Shown piece by piece: positions 4,600 through 32,781 of a DNA stretch of 64,000 bases. How positions within the stretch are numbered: position 1 is the stretch's first letter; the number at the start of each line of letters is the position of its first letter. The stretch is from Thiomicrorhabdus sp. Kp2. GTDB taxonomy: Bacteria; Pseudomonadota; Gammaproteobacteria; Thiomicrospirales; Thiomicrospiraceae. Made by a program: the position numbers and the translations under genes. The DNA lies in contig NZ_ARWI01000001.1 in the NCBI RefSeq assembly GCF_000478585.1, forward strand, positions 992,001 through 1,056,000, in the 5' to 3' direction. The notes beneath the pieces were generated by a model. The model had not been told where the DNA came from. It saw only the letters and a program-made list of their open reading frames with translations, and did no database searches.

Positions 4600-6999
4600 A
4601 TGCTTATCAAAGACTTGTCATTAAGAGCTGACGATATGAAAAACTCAAAACATCGCCAAATCAATATCAATCTCATTGTTTTAGGGGTAATCTTTGCCAT
4701 TACCTTTGTGAGTTTATTTACCTACATCCCTCTTTACCTGAATACGCTTGAACAAAAAACCCAAGACATTAAACAAGATGCAGAACTGCAATCTATATTA
4801 CTTAAACAAATATTTAAACCCGTTATAAACGCCAAAACCCTTTACAGTAAAAACCGAAACACACAACTCGCTTTACAAGAAATCAAATCATTATGGTTTG
4901 AGCTCAATAGTGATCGTCCTCAACAGGAGTTCTTTTTAGTTCATAAAAACCCTACAACGGACAAAATTGAATTGGTACTCAGCTCCAAAGCTGGCACTAC
5001 ATTTCCTGGCACAGTACGTTTAGTTAAGCCGACTATGTACATGGCTATTGGCGGGCATTACGGAGTTCAAAGTATTACTGACATCTCTAACAGTACCGTA
5101 CTAACCGCTTACGCTCCCGTCATACCCAAAGAGTGGGGGGTCATCATCAAATATGAACAACAAACCATCAACCCAAGCTTAATAGAGACCCTTAGCTACA
5201 CGTTGTTTGCCGCCTTATTAATTACTTTAATTATCTGGCTCGTTTTACGATTAACATTAAGGCATATCAACAATAGAGTTACCTCTTCTGAAGAACGTTA
5301 TGAACAACTTCTTGAGAACTCTCCAGATTGGATTTGGGAGATCGATAAATTAGGAGTCATTAAATATTCAAGTAAACAAGTTTATTCAATACTTGGCTAC
5401 CAACCAGAAGAACTTCTTTTAAAGCCATTTAGTGCGTTATTTGACCCCCAAGACGCAAAAACCAGTACTCTCAACTGGCAACAAAAAATCATGTTAAAAG
5501 AGCCATTCTCGGATTTAGAACTTGGCTTATTAAACAAATCTAAAGAACATGTTTACATGCTAGTGAGCGGCCAACCTATTTTTAATAAATCTCATAACCT
5601 TATTGGCTATAGAGGCATTGCTAAAAACATTTCAACCCTTAAACAGCATGACAATAATATCTTAAATTTAGCTTTTTATGACCCCCTCACAAAATTGGCT
5701 AACCGCTTAAATTTTATTGAAACATTAAAAAAACACATCAAATCTCAATCTGCCACCGCATTAAAACCTTCTGCTTTGCTCTTTATCGACCTAAACGGGT
5801 TTAAACCCGTCAACGATATAGAAGGCCATGAATCTGGTGATAAGTTGCTTAAAATTATTGCACAACGCATGCAAAACCATGCCCGTATGACGGATCTAGT
5901 TGCCCGCTTTGGAGGTGATGAGTTTGTTATTTTAATCAAACAAGAGCACACAACCCGCCCAACAGAGTTCCAAAGAAACTTAGAACATTACCTTGACCGT
6001 TTACTTGAAAAGATTGCTGAACCGATTCATATAAATAATAAACAACTCAAAATTGGAGCCAGCATTGGCGTTGCAATCATCCCCAAAGACGGTAATAACG
6101 TGTCTGCCATTCTTAACCATGCCGATGTCGCGATGTATCAAGCGAAAAGTAAGGGCAAAAGTAAGGGCAAAAGTAACTATCACTTTTACGATCAATTCAC
6201 GCAAACCAATATGGATAAGCTTTTAAAAAGTTCAGCAGAGTTAAAGCAAGCGATTTCTGAAGACCAATTTCAGCTTTATTATCAGTTTCAATACGACTCA
6301 AACAGCGATAAAATTATTGGCATGGAAGCCTTTTTGCGCTGGCATCATCCTGAAACGCATAAAATTTTGCCTGCTAATGAGTTTTTAACACTTGCTTACA
6401 ATACCAATAATATAAATGCCATAGATGAGTGGGTCATAAAAACGGCTGCAAAAGATATCCATAAACTGAATCAGAAAGGAATCAAAGCACCCCCTGTTTC
6501 TATAAATCTATCCACTCAAAAACTCGAAGAGAGTACACTGCCACGGGTATTTGAAGAGGCTATTAAACGTAATTTTATTTCCGCTTCAGCGCTAAAAATA
6601 GAGATTACAGAAAACACACTTTTGCATGATTTAGAAAAATCCAGACACACGATAGAACAACTAAGACAACAAGGTATTAAAGTATGCATTGACAATTTTG
6701 GAACTGGGTATTCAAGTCTTTCTTATATTCAGGCCTTACCGATAGAGTCCATCAAAATTGATAAATCTTTTATTGAAAACATTGCAACAAGCCATAGCGA
6801 CTTACAAATGTGTCGTACCTTTATACAACTGGGTAAATCTTTAAAAATCGATGTGATTGCAGAAGGCATTCAATCTGAAGTACAAAGTGAAATTCTAAAA
6901 AAAGAAGGTTGTCATATGCTACAAGGCTATCTCTACTCAAACCCAAAACCCATCGATAAAATTATGATAGAGCTTAGTAAAAATCCTTTATCAATCTAA
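4600..6999 (+). CDS. Membrane PAS-GGDEF-EAL c-di-GMP enzyme
   Basis: A 799-residue inner-membrane protein that makes and/or breaks c-di-GMP. Order: TM helix (~25-45), periplasmic sensor region, second TM (~197-217), PAS domain (~228-345), GGDEF domain (~350-520), EAL domain (~540-795). The cyclase site ARFGGDEF is intact and RMTD five residues upstream is a good product-inhibition I-site. The EAL domain departs from consensus: EAFLR for EALLR and IDNFGTG for DDFGTG, so one metal-binding Asp is Asn; QALP...IKIDKSFI and AEGI are kept. Cyclase activity is therefore likely, hydrolysis doubtful. A short in-frame tandem repeat (SKGKSKGKS) lies between the domains. ATG 4636 (residue 13) has the better-spaced ribosome site and may be the true start. 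Two PilZ genes follow, probably in one operon. Confidence 0.93.
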   Translation: MLIKDLSLRADDMKNSKHRQININLIVLGVIFAITFVSLFTYIPLYLNTLEQKTQDIKQDAELQSILLKQIFKPVINAKTLYSKNRNTQLALQEIKSLWFELNSDRPQQEFFLVHKNPTTDKIELVLSSKAGTTFPGTVRLVKPTMYMAIGGHYGVQSITDISNSTVLTAYAPVIPKEWGVIIKYEQQTINPSLIETLSYTLFAALLITLIIWLVLRLTLRHINNRVTSSEERYEQLLENSPDWIWEIDKLGVIKYSSKQVYSILGYQPEELLLKPFSALFDPQDAKTSTLNWQQKIMLKEPFSDLELGLLNKSKEHVYMLVSGQPIFNKSHNLIGYRGIAKNISTLKQHDNNILNLAFYDPLTKLANRLNFIETLKKHIKSQSATALKPSALLFIDLNGFKPVNDIEGHESGDKLLKIIAQRMQNHARMTDLVARFGGDEFVILIKQEHTTRPTEFQRNLEHYLDRLLEKIAEPIHINNKQLKIGASIGVAIIPKDGNNVSAILNHADVAMYQAKSKGKSKGKSNYHFYDQFTQTNMDKLLKSSAELKQAISEDQFQLYYQFQYDSNSDKIIGMEAFLRWHHPETHKILPANEFLTLAYNTNNINAIDEWVIKTAAKDIHKLNQKGIKAPPVSINLSTQKLEESTLPRVFEEAIKRNFISASALKIEITENTLLHDLEKSRHTIEQLRQQGIKVCIDNFGTGYSSLSYIQALPIESIKIDKSFIENIATSHSDLQMCRTFIQLGKSLKIDVIAEGIQSEVQSEILKKEGCHMLQGYLYSNPKPIDKIMIELSKNPLSI

Positions 7000-29702: not shown

Positions 29703-30386
29703 CTACCAGGCCTGGTTATTTTGAAAATTAGCTCTAATTAAGATATTTACCCGTCTATTTAATCTTTTATCTTGCTCGGTATCATTGGCAACAATTGGAT
29801 GCCACTCTCCATAGCCCGATACCGAAAACAGGCTGGCTGGCAACCCGCTTTGTTCATACAGAGCTTCCATAACCGCTTGTGCTCGTAAGGTACTTAAAAA
29901 GAAGTTATTCCGCAATCTGGAACGTGGATCAATGTGATCGTTATCGGTATGGCCTTCTATTACAATTTCAGAATGCCAAATCAACCCCTCTTCGTTAGCT
30001 TTTTGAATAACCAGACGGTTATCCTCTGATTGCTCAATATTAAGCAATGGCGTTTTAGCCAACAATTTACTGATGACCCTGAGCTCTGTTTGTAATTGAG
30101 GGGTTGGCGAAAATTGGCCACTTTGAAAGGCGTTATCACTCTGAATGGTTAATAACACACCTCTGGCGGTTCGTTTTACCGTTATGACTTCTAGCTTCTG
30201 CTTTTTCGCTTCATTTTCTAGCACCTGATAACTTTCAGTAATTTGCAAATCAACCCACTTTTCTATTTTGCTAATCTCGCCCTTATTCATGGCAATCGTC
30301 ATAATAAAAAAGGTAATTAACAACGTTACCACATCACCAAAAGCCAGTAACCAGGCCGATTTAGCACGCTCCAGCACCATATTCAT
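29703..30386 (-). CDS. MotB/OmpA-like protein with stator-type Asp
   Basis: A 227-residue inner-membrane protein with one N-terminal TM helix, WLLAFGDVVTLLITFFIM (~12-30), and a C-terminal OmpA-like peptidoglycan-binding domain (EGHTDNDHIDPRSRLRNNFFLSTLRAQAVM..., SGYGEWHP...NRRVNI). The Asp in FGDVV occupies the proton-carrying position of MotB (the TYADLMTLL Asp). The stop codon TAG lies inside a palindrome copy (29705-29716) encoding QAW-stop. The start overlaps the upstream MotB-like gene by four bases (ATGA), so they are translationally coupled. Confidence 0.85.
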   Translation of the reverse strand: MNMVLERAKSAWLLAFGDVVTLLITFFIMTIAMNKGEISKIEKWVDLQITESYQVLENEAKKQKLEVITVKRTARGVLLTIQSDNAFQSGQFSPTPQLQTELRVISKLLAKTPLLNIEQSEDNRLVIQKANEEGLIWHSEIVIEGHTDNDHIDPRSRLRNNFFLSTLRAQAVMEALYEQSGLPASLFSVSGYGEWHPIVANDTEQDKRLNRRVNILIRANFQNNQAW

Positions 30387-31189
30387 TGTGCATCACCTAT
30401 CTCACGACTGGTACTCTCACCATTCAATTCTGCCGCATCTTTAATTAATGGGAGCAAGTAGATTTCAATACGTCGGTTTTGTGGTTCAGTAGGATCTTGG
30501 GTAATTGGGTGAAAACTCCCATAACCAGAAATTGCAAAACTTGATTTAGGTAAACCCGTATGAATTCGTAACCACTCCATCATGGCGTAGGCGCGATAGG
30601 TGCTGAGTTCAACATTGTTCCTAAATCGAGCCGTAGGGGCAAGCGAAAAGGAATCGGTATGACCCTCAATGCGAATTAAAAAATGAACTTTGGCACCATT
30701 TGTCTCTATACCCCTGATTAACTTGGCATGACGCTCAGTAAAATGGCCTAAGTCTAACGACAATAAAAGGTCAGAAATACTCTGTAAATATGGTAAGTAA
30801 CGGGGGTTAATTTTGGCTCGAGCTGATTCAAATAAAGAGCTATTAGCAATCAAATCCGATGGTAGGCTTAAACGTACACCTTTGGTTAAGCTGTGCTCAA
30901 TATTTAACCAACTCACGCCTTGTTTATTTAATTGAAAGACCACTTCTTGATTGAGTTTTTTAACGAGTTTTTGATAGTTACGTTTGGGGGTTGAGCCTTC
31001 AAGCTCAACCAAACTAATGATTAAAATAAAGAAGGCTAACAAAGAGGTAAAAAGTGAAATATAGGTCAGCAACCATAAACGGTTACGTTTTATTTGTTGG
31101 GTTTCAGGGTTGTCGAAACCTACCAGGCCTGGTAACTTTGTTTTGGATGACTTTGATTTATTGAAGAGCGAGATTAAAAGTAAAGACAT
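30383..31189 (-). CDS. MotB/OmpA-like paralogue lacking the proton Asp
   Basis: 268 residues: a cytoplasmic N-terminal extension of about 35 residues, one TM helix (WLLTYISLFTSLLAFFILIISL, ~38-59) and an OmpA-like domain (EGHTDSFSLAPTARFRNNVELSTYRAYAMMEWL, SGYGSFHP...NRRIEIYLL). The TM segment aligns with MotB but has Ser where MotB has the essential Asp (TYISLFTSLL against TYADLMTLL). It lies between the MotA-like gene and the Asp-bearing paralogue, suggesting a mixed stator complex. Palindrome 31121-31134 encodes LPGLV in the N-terminal extension. Confidence 0.82.
   Translation of the reverse strand: MSLLLISLFNKSKSSKTKLPGLVGFDNPETQQIKRNRLWLLTYISLFTSLLAFFILIISLVELEGSTPKRNYQKLVKKLNQEVVFQLNKQGVSWLNIEHSLTKGVRLSLPSDLIANSSLFESARAKINPRYLPYLQSISDLLLSLDLGHFTERHAKLIRGIETNGAKVHFLIRIEGHTDSFSLAPTARFRNNVELSTYRAYAMMEWLRIHTGLPKSSFAISGYGSFHPITQDPTEPQNRRIEIYLLPLIKDAAELNGESTSREIGDAQ
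31121..31134. repeat. Palindrome copy in MotB-like paralogue
   Basis: TACCAGGCCTGGTA, 14-bp perfect palindrome, read as L-P-G-L-V. Confidence 0.93.
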
Positions 31190-31200
31190 ATAAACTCGCT

Positions 31201-32022
31201 TTACTTTAATGATTCGAGTTTTTGTTTGGTTTTTTCATTTACAAATGCCAACAACTGCTCTTTGACTAATAAGGTCGACTCCGATCTTTTAAGAGCTAAA
31301 ACACCTTGAATAATCATCTCATTACGTAAAACCTCAGCCTCAGTTAACACCTTTAACTTACCTGCAATCGGTAAAAACACCAGGTTAGAAAACAGCACAC
31401 CATAGAAAGTCGTGACTAGAGCCAAACCCATTCCACTCAACAAACTGCCCAGCATATCTTGGGCTTCAGCGCCATACGGATTACCCGTATCGGTTACTTG
31501 GGTTGTCATCATAATAATCAACCCCATCACCGTTCCCATCATTCCAAACGCAGGCGCATATGAGGCCATATTGCCATACACTTCTTGGCAAGAAAGGTGT
31601 CTCAATCGCATATTAACAAGGCGGTTTTCGAGGCTCTGATTTAACACCGCTACATCGTGATAAACCAGCATTTCTGTAAGCGCAAAACGAAAAAAACGAT
31701 CATCAATTGAATCGATTTGATTTTCAACCGCCAATAAACCTTTTTGCTTTGAGATATGGCTTAGACGCACCATCTCTTCAATGACATCGCTATAACCAGA
31801 TAGCTCTGAAGTGAGGACTTTTCCAAGCCCTTTAAAGACACAGCCAACTTGGCTGAATGGATAATTAATCAAAACGGCGGCAAAAGTACCACCCAATACC
31901 AAGACCAACCCCTGCCAGTTTAAAAAAGCGTAGATAAATTGACCTTGCTGGTAATCAATCATGCTCAATATCAAAATAATTGAGCCAATGAACAAGCCTA
32001 GTATTGTCGCGAATTTACTCAT
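31201..32022 (-). CDS. MotA-like proton channel subunit
   Basis: A 273-residue MotA/TolQ/ExbB-family protein with four expected TM helices: two near the N-terminus (ATILGLFIGSIILILSMI; GLVLVLGGTFAAVLI) and two near ~150-210 (YAPAFGMMGTVMGLIIMM; GSLLSGMGLALVTTFYGVLFSNLVFLP). The conserved proline glycine pattern APAFGMMGTVMGL is typical of MotA. With the two MotB-like proteins downstream it should form a proton- or sodium-driven stator. No other flagellar gene is in the window, so it may serve flagella elsewhere in the genome or another surface machine. ZorA was considered, but this protein lacks the long ZorA tail. Confidence 0.87.
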   Translation of the reverse strand: MSKFATILGLFIGSIILILSMIDYQQGQFIYAFLNWQGLVLVLGGTFAAVLINYPFSQVGCVFKGLGKVLTSELSGYSDVIEEMVRLSHISKQKGLLAVENQIDSIDDRFFRFALTEMLVYHDVAVLNQSLENRLVNMRLRHLSCQEVYGNMASYAPAFGMMGTVMGLIIMMTTQVTDTGNPYGAEAQDMLGSLLSGMGLALVTTFYGVLFSNLVFLPIAGKLKVLTEAEVLRNEMIIQGVLALKRSESTLLVKEQLLAFVNEKTKQKLESLK

Positions 32023-32025
32023 TGA

Positions 32026-32781
32026 TTAATTGTGGCGAATCTCCTCTTTCTCATCAGCAAGCTCTTGTGCTGAAGAGGATAAGTGTTGACTCAACCAACT
32101 CTCTACCTGTTGATTAATTTCAGAAGCGGACATTTCTGCCGTATTTAACGGTTCACTGATATACACATCAATGCACCCTGGTCTTTTTATAAAACTATTT
32201 TTTGGCCAAAATTCACCCGCATTATGCGCCACTAAATAGACAGGCACTTTGGCTTTAGAGGCTAACATGGCTCCGCCAATGTTAATTTTGCCTAATTCAC
32301 CTGCTGGCATTCGCGTTCCTTCTGGGAACACCACGACCCAATCACCCTGTGCTAAACGCTCTTTACCTTCGGTCACCAATTGGTTTAACGCCTTTCTACC
32401 AGCACCTCGATCAATCGCGATTGGGTTTAGCAACGCCATACCCCATCCAAAAAACGGTACTTTCAGCAATTCTCTTTTTAAAACATAAGCGTGACGAGGG
32501 AAAATCGCCTGAAAGGCAAAGGTTTCCCATGCCGATTCATGTCTAGCAAGGATTAAGCCAGCAGTCTCTCTATTGATATTTTCAGCACCATGAACGCGAT
32601 ATTTAACACCACAAGTCCAGCCTACCCAAGTTACACAAAAACGCGCCCAATAGTGCATAAAGGCATAGCGTGTTGCAAATGAGAACGGACGCGTAAACTG
32701 CCCTAGAACGGAAAACAAAATCAGCGTTGTAATCTGCCCTATTGAAAATAATACCGAACGTAAAAACCAGATGATTTTCAT
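32026..32781 (-). CDS. plsC: Lysophospholipid acyltransferase (PlsC family)
   Basis: A 251-residue 1-acyl-glycerol-3-phosphate acyltransferase-like protein, acting at the inner membrane in phosphatidic acid synthesis or phospholipid remodelling. Acyltransferase block I is RHESAWETF (Hx4E, a known variant of Hx4D), block III is VVFPEGTRMPAGE, and VPVYLVAHNAGEFW is the block IV region. An N-terminal hydrophobic helix (IGQITTLILFSVLGQF) anchors it. Its start overlaps the gmhB stop by four bases. This gmhB-plsC pair next to glyQS is a common gammaproteobacterial arrangement. Confidence 0.9.
   Translation of the reverse strand: MKIIWFLRSVLFSIGQITTLILFSVLGQFTRPFSFATRYAFMHYWARFCVTWVGWTCGVKYRVHGAENINRETAGLILARHESAWETFAFQAIFPRHAYVLKRELLKVPFFGWGMALLNPIAIDRGAGRKALNQLVTEGKERLAQGDWVVVFPEGTRMPAGELGKINIGGAMLASKAKVPVYLVAHNAGEFWPKNSFIKRPGCIDVYISEPLNTAEMSASEINQQVESWLSQHLSSSAQELADEKEEIRHN

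Follow-up and report, generated by a model that had tools for sequence, protein, structure and literature searches.

A MotA-like gene with two MotB-like partners, one of them acid-less, may encode a lopsided rotary motor in two distant phyla, often without flagella

In the 5:2 model of ion-driven motors, a pentamer of A subunits turns on a dimer of B subunits, with 10 ions per turn and steps of 36 degrees (PMC9389320). A locus in which one MotA-like gene is accompanied by two unlike MotB-like genes, only one of which carries the ion-binding acid, raises the question of what such a set of subunits would form and what it would drive. Such a locus lies in the window, by which we mean the whole stretch of 64,000 nucleotides analysed here. 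Three adjoining or overlapping open reading frames were found on the minus strand, as the initial annotation had described them, and its reading of a MotA-type channel with two OmpA-domain proteins is borne out by Pfam matches:

31201..32022, minus strand: A, MotA-family ring subunit, 273 aa (MotA_ExbB, PF01618, 72.8 bits)
30383..31189, minus strand: B1, acid-less MotB-like subunit, 268 aa (OmpA 34.4 bits, MotB_plug 22.7 bits)
31055..31057, minus strand: codon of B1 Ser45, the site of the ion-binding Asp (located from the first base of the ORF, 31189, and by alignment)
29703..30386, minus strand: B2, Asp-bearing MotB-like subunit, 227 aa (MotB_plug 30.9 bits, OmpA 50.9 bits)
30333..30335, minus strand: codon of B2 Asp18, the presumed ion-binding residue (located from the first base of the ORF, 30386, and by alignment)
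32026..32781, minus strand: plsC-type acyltransferase (PF01553), a flanking gene outside the module, 3 nt upstream of A

A gap of 11 nt separates A from B1, and B2 overlaps the end of B1 by 4 nt; together with the 3 nt between plsC and A, this is a layout typical of translational coupling. B1 consists of one TM helix and an OmpA-like peptidoglycan-binding domain, its OmpA match being above the Pfam cut-off and its MotB_plug match just below (22.7 vs 24). The neighbours of the trio are glyQ, glyS, gmhB, plsC, ung, pdxH and parE, and the remark that no flagellar gene is nearby is true locally, the FliG of the genome being about 370 kb away. The source genome (2.73 Mb) carries FliG and separate MotA/MotB pairs elsewhere; one further pair, with a TM Asp (WKIALADLM), lies at G000:C1:990211-991734, about 270 bp to the left of the window start.

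The ion-binding site and the maintenance of B1

In profile alignments to solved MotB chains, D18 of B2 (AFGDVV) aligns with the ion-binding Asp, and S45 of B1 (TYISLF) occupies the same position, which agrees with the earlier reading of Ser for Asp in one B protein and Asp (FGDVV) in the other. All 58 distinct B2 sequences keep the Asp, so that B2 combines a TM Asp with an OmpA-type peptidoglycan domain as a MotB-type protein should; B1 has the OmpA-type domain as well, but its Asp site is non-acidic in 42 of 58 sequences. None of the 26 sequences from Thiomicrospiraceae has an acid there (Ala 9, Ser 9, Gly 7, Thr 1), and those from Neomarinimicrobiota (n=32) have Ser in 16 and Asp in 16. A replacement acid elsewhere in the TM helix was considered and rejected, as all acid-less B1 are free of Asp and Glu from -7 to +15 relative to the site. 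The reading of one B subunit without the acid thus stands for all 26 B1 of Thiomicrospiraceae, but it is not universal, since one clade of Neomarinimicrobiota has Asp.

The history of this residue was followed on a tree built with the ion site masked. The Asp-type B1 of Neomarinimicrobiota form one clade nested among Ser-bearing B1 (94/97 inside 100/99), and two changes suffice, namely a loss of Asp at the root of the B1 clade and its regain in the nested clade; an ancestral Asp in B1 would, by manual count, cost at least about six losses. The Asp was apparently regained in this one clade, which means that a single acid is not a strict requirement, and its return at exactly this site is what a position of the B1 helix inside the pore would lead one to expect. 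At the loci with Asp-type B1 (L153-L168), B2 mostly has Thr directly after its Asp.

B1 also has the marks of a maintained protein. The Asp/Asn/Arg motif for peptidoglycan binding by OmpA domains is kept, and its predicted structure matches the periplasmic domain of MotB. Compared with its closest relative, B1 has a dN of 0.18 and a dS of 2.2, which is near saturation, giving a dN/dS near 0.1 or below; judged by these rates, B1 is under strong purifying selection. The possibility of a pseudogene was rejected, since the frame is open in almost every genome and dN is much lower than dS. Frameshifts were seen in B1 of the near-complete genome G019 (locus L014) and in A of the draft G007 (L007), reflecting either decay or sequencing error. 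In Escherichia coli, the MotB substitution D32N stops proton flow (PMC4030992); accordingly, a stator with B1 as its only B subunit should be inert, an all-B1 axle being non-conducting.

Distribution and ancestry of the trio

The trio is present in 21 of 37 genomes of the family Thiomicrospiraceae, including that of the window, and at all 20 loci examined in this family it lies between the glyQ-glyS-gmhB-plsC row and ung-pdxH-parE. Among relatives lacking it, plsC adjoins ung with a gap of 10 to about 90 bp in some (e.g. G005, G014 and G031), and in others the two are separated by an interval of about 1 to 2 kb that contains other DNA but no trio gene. As all three genes are missing from the same site, the module is present or absent as a whole. 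Wherever trio A occurs, B1 and B2 adjoin it in the order A-B1-B2, the exceptions being contig ends and the two frameshifted copies. At up to 9 of the 20 loci, a gene for a methyl-accepting chemotaxis protein is situated 3' of B2 on the opposite strand (e.g. L111:8760-10742).

The same order was found in Neomarinimicrobiota, where 33 of 245 genomes have the trio, two of them interrupted by contig ends. A scan of 84,980 species located full-length B1 relatives, among the matches listed, only in Thiomicrospiraceae and three Marinimicrobia genomes; it relied on two short peptide patterns, which more distant trios may escape. Outside Thiomicrospiraceae, no trio was found in a sample of 369 Gammaproteobacteria, which gave one weak OmpA-only match, and 234 sampled Pseudomonadota likewise gave OmpA-domain matches and no trio. 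Chance can be excluded, given that dozens of genomes share the trio with its gene order and its pattern of acids. The flanks are conserved within each phylum only, no neighbours common to both having been found; the plsC-type gene adjoins the trio only in Thiomicrospiraceae, and is kilobases away in three Neomarinimicrobiota.

In phylogenetic trees, the B1 sequences of the two phyla together form one clade (99) and their B2 sequences another (98), a result that also holds in the careful tree. These reciprocal clades indicate that the division into B1 and B2 is ancient and kept, and that the split came before the module reached both groups, be it through inheritance or through transfer. In the tree of A, trio A of both phyla group together (94), and their sister is the A subunit of an A-B dyad with one Asp-bearing B (97). 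Such dyads were seen at L176:11209-12779 and L198:8896-10440, and in G431 one lies directly upstream of the trio.

The existence of this sister dyad in Neomarinimicrobiota, along with the presence of all known MotB features in B2 alone, could be taken to mean that A and B2 form a normal A5(B2)2 ion motor, with B1 as a regulator, for example a brake or an anchor, such that inert A5(B1)2 or mixed units set the activity. We regard this as rather improbable: wherever A and B2 occur, B1 is there too, and the reappearance of Asp at the B1 site in one clade would be superfluous for a subunit that serves only as a brake. An acid-less B1 that is strictly linked and selected, beside a B2 that always has the acid, is most simply accounted for by an axle of B1 and B2 with a single acid.

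Subunit A and the link to flagella

The closest PDB chains to A are those of flagellar MotA and PomA (E-values 1e-42 to 1e-15), and its nearest relatives in NCBIfam and the PDB taken together are flagellar MotP, MotA, MotC and PomA. A has the four TM helices of a MotA-type subunit, and the Pro/Thr of TM3 and the Thr-Thr/Pro of TM4 are invariant in 58 of 58 sequences. The AlphaFold model consists of helices throughout, four short ones (56-71, 78-94, 97-103 and 109-120) lying between TM2 and TM3, and TM3 is unbroken (124-176). It thus has both parts of the definition of flagellar stators (FIT; PMC12505986), a continuous TM3 and a torque-generating interface made of four or more helices. The TM3-TM4 periplasmic loop is longer in trio A. 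The DG motif of the FliG-facing helix is replaced in all 58 sequences, and the FliG-facing Arg and Glu positions are variable.

Conservation beyond flagellated species was the check that the initial annotation had set for its idea, and it was found: 22 of the 33 Neomarinimicrobiota genomes with the trio have neither FlhA nor a flagellar-type FliG, most of these 22 being drafts and one, G408, a single contig of 2.79 Mb. B1 is of the Ser type in at least eight of them (G403, G404, G408, G409, G430, G473, G625 and G646). The near-complete Thiomicrospiraceae genomes with the trio are all flagellated, a full FliG not having been found in two drafts, and many flagellated Thiomicrorhabdus have other MotAB pairs and no trio. 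A pair of tandem stand-alone FliG_C-like proteins of about 150 aa is encoded at L102:4755-5219 and 5259-5714 (G000:C1 about 2092750-2093710); a link of this pair to the trio was rejected, as nearly all genomes of the genus have it, with or without the trio.

The close relationship of A to flagellar subunits, the flagellated state of the Thiomicrospiraceae concerned and the chemoreceptor gene at 9 of 20 loci would fit an accessory flagellar stator for special load or ion conditions, as in multi-stator species. Such a role is nevertheless unlikely, because both FlhA and flagellar FliG are missing from two thirds of the Neomarinimicrobiota genomes with the trio, many flagellated Thiomicrorhabdus manage with their other MotAB pairs, trio A is devoid of the DG motif, and flagellar genes do not adjoin the trio. 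The loss of this motif and the absence of FlhA and FliG from those 22 genomes argue against the trio being a flagellar stator of the ordinary kind. A is built like the members of the flagellar group but has neither their FliG motif nor a consistent association with flagella, and is better described as belonging to a variant of the MotAB-type motor. The suggestion that the trio drives another envelope process is favoured by the same genomes.

In Neomarinimicrobiota (n=245), FliG_C was above the cut-off in 168 genomes and FlhA was found in only 42. A non-flagellar cluster of genes for MotA, MotB, a FliF_C-like coiled-coil membrane protein and a FliG-like protein was observed in this phylum (L194:5412-9710 in G638; L171:70-2977 in G408), preceded in L194 by TPR/outer-membrane-type genes. 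The cluster resembles a rotor-stator machine that lacks both export apparatus and filament. It lies within about 10 kb of the trio in G404, G408 and G409, and a divergent FliG is present in most genomes with the trio, so that the trio of this phylum might be thought of as a second stator for this machine. We consider this very unlikely: many genomes have the divergent FliG but no trio, the two are apart at most other trio loci, and this FliG has a MotA and MotB of its own, which keep the DG motif common to flagellar MotA and lost from trio A. Moreover, no FliF-like partner stands beside the trio in Thiomicrospiraceae.

The proposed motor and known systems

On balance we lean towards the trio being a MotAB-like rotary ion motor with a single acid on its B1/B2 axle, driving a non-flagellar envelope process. 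By analogy with the MotAB family, a pentamer of A would surround an axle of one B1 and one B2, with rotation and ion conduction; the heterodimer and its single-acid cycle we infer from the anatomy of the subunits, and A might instead turn on B2-B2 homodimers. The ion-binding Asp would be carried by B2 only, and B1 would contribute the other axle helix along with another peptidoglycan anchor. With one acid in the axle, about 5 ions instead of 10 would pass for each turn of the A ring, and the rotation of the ring would drive a non-flagellar process, at least in species without flagella. The fuller proposition, that of a natural asymmetric 5:1:1 motor in which one acid serves five A subunits in a non-flagellar envelope role, at 5 ions and steps of about 72 degrees instead of 10 and 36, and with at least one reversion to two acids, is advanced more tentatively, at somewhat short of even chances.

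The ten-fold symmetry of 5:2 motors has been rated in a review as almost certain to be universal (PMC9389320), and no acid-less MotB partner was found described in the open-access literature, which is not proof of absence. If the proposal is true, a natural motor with an acid-less axle subunit breaks the rule of 10 ions and 36 degrees, and the alternating-acid mechanism becomes directly testable, with the clade of Asp-regained B1 as a built-in comparison. The trio would also add a stator-like motor that stands outside the flagellar stators and outside the gliding, Ton, Tol and Zorya motors known so far.

The initial annotation had called the three-gene layout non-standard, which stands as far as the acid-less B partner is concerned, but one A with two B is known from Aquifex aeolicus (PMC4525482) and from AglRQS (PMC9389320). 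The operon motA-motB1-motB2 of A. aeolicus is similar in having one MotA followed by two MotB, the periplasmic parts of which are very different. The N-terminal and TM parts of these MotB share 97% identity, and the two chimeras were functional in E. coli (PMC4525482), so that both must keep the ion site. Unlike the trio, this system has a flagellated host and Asp in both B; the TM helices of B1 and B2 differ and B1 is acid-less, a shared ion-binding helix being approached loosely in the clade of Asp-type B1 only.

AglRQS, which serves Myxococcus gliding, resembles the trio in its single MotA/TolQ-like A with two B and in its non-flagellar role, and its heterodimer is likewise an open question (PMC9389320, PMC3169522). 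AglQ and AglS are, however, of the ExbD/TolR type and both have the TM Asp, whereas both B of the trio are of the MotB/OmpA type, which also separates it from TolQR and ExbBD (GIT). Zorya was rejected: ZorAB is a MotA/MotB-like membrane motor for defence and both B1 and B2 match ZorB profiles, but trio A (273 aa) has no ZorA match in PADLOC, and its neighbours are housekeeping genes without a Zorya effector. Flagellar MotAB and PomAB (FIT, PMC12505986) share with the trio the expanded cytoplasmic domain of four helices, the unbroken TM3 and B subunits of the OmpA type that bind peptidoglycan; the trio differs from them in its two B genes, one of them acid-less, in the loss of DG and in its occurrence without flagella.
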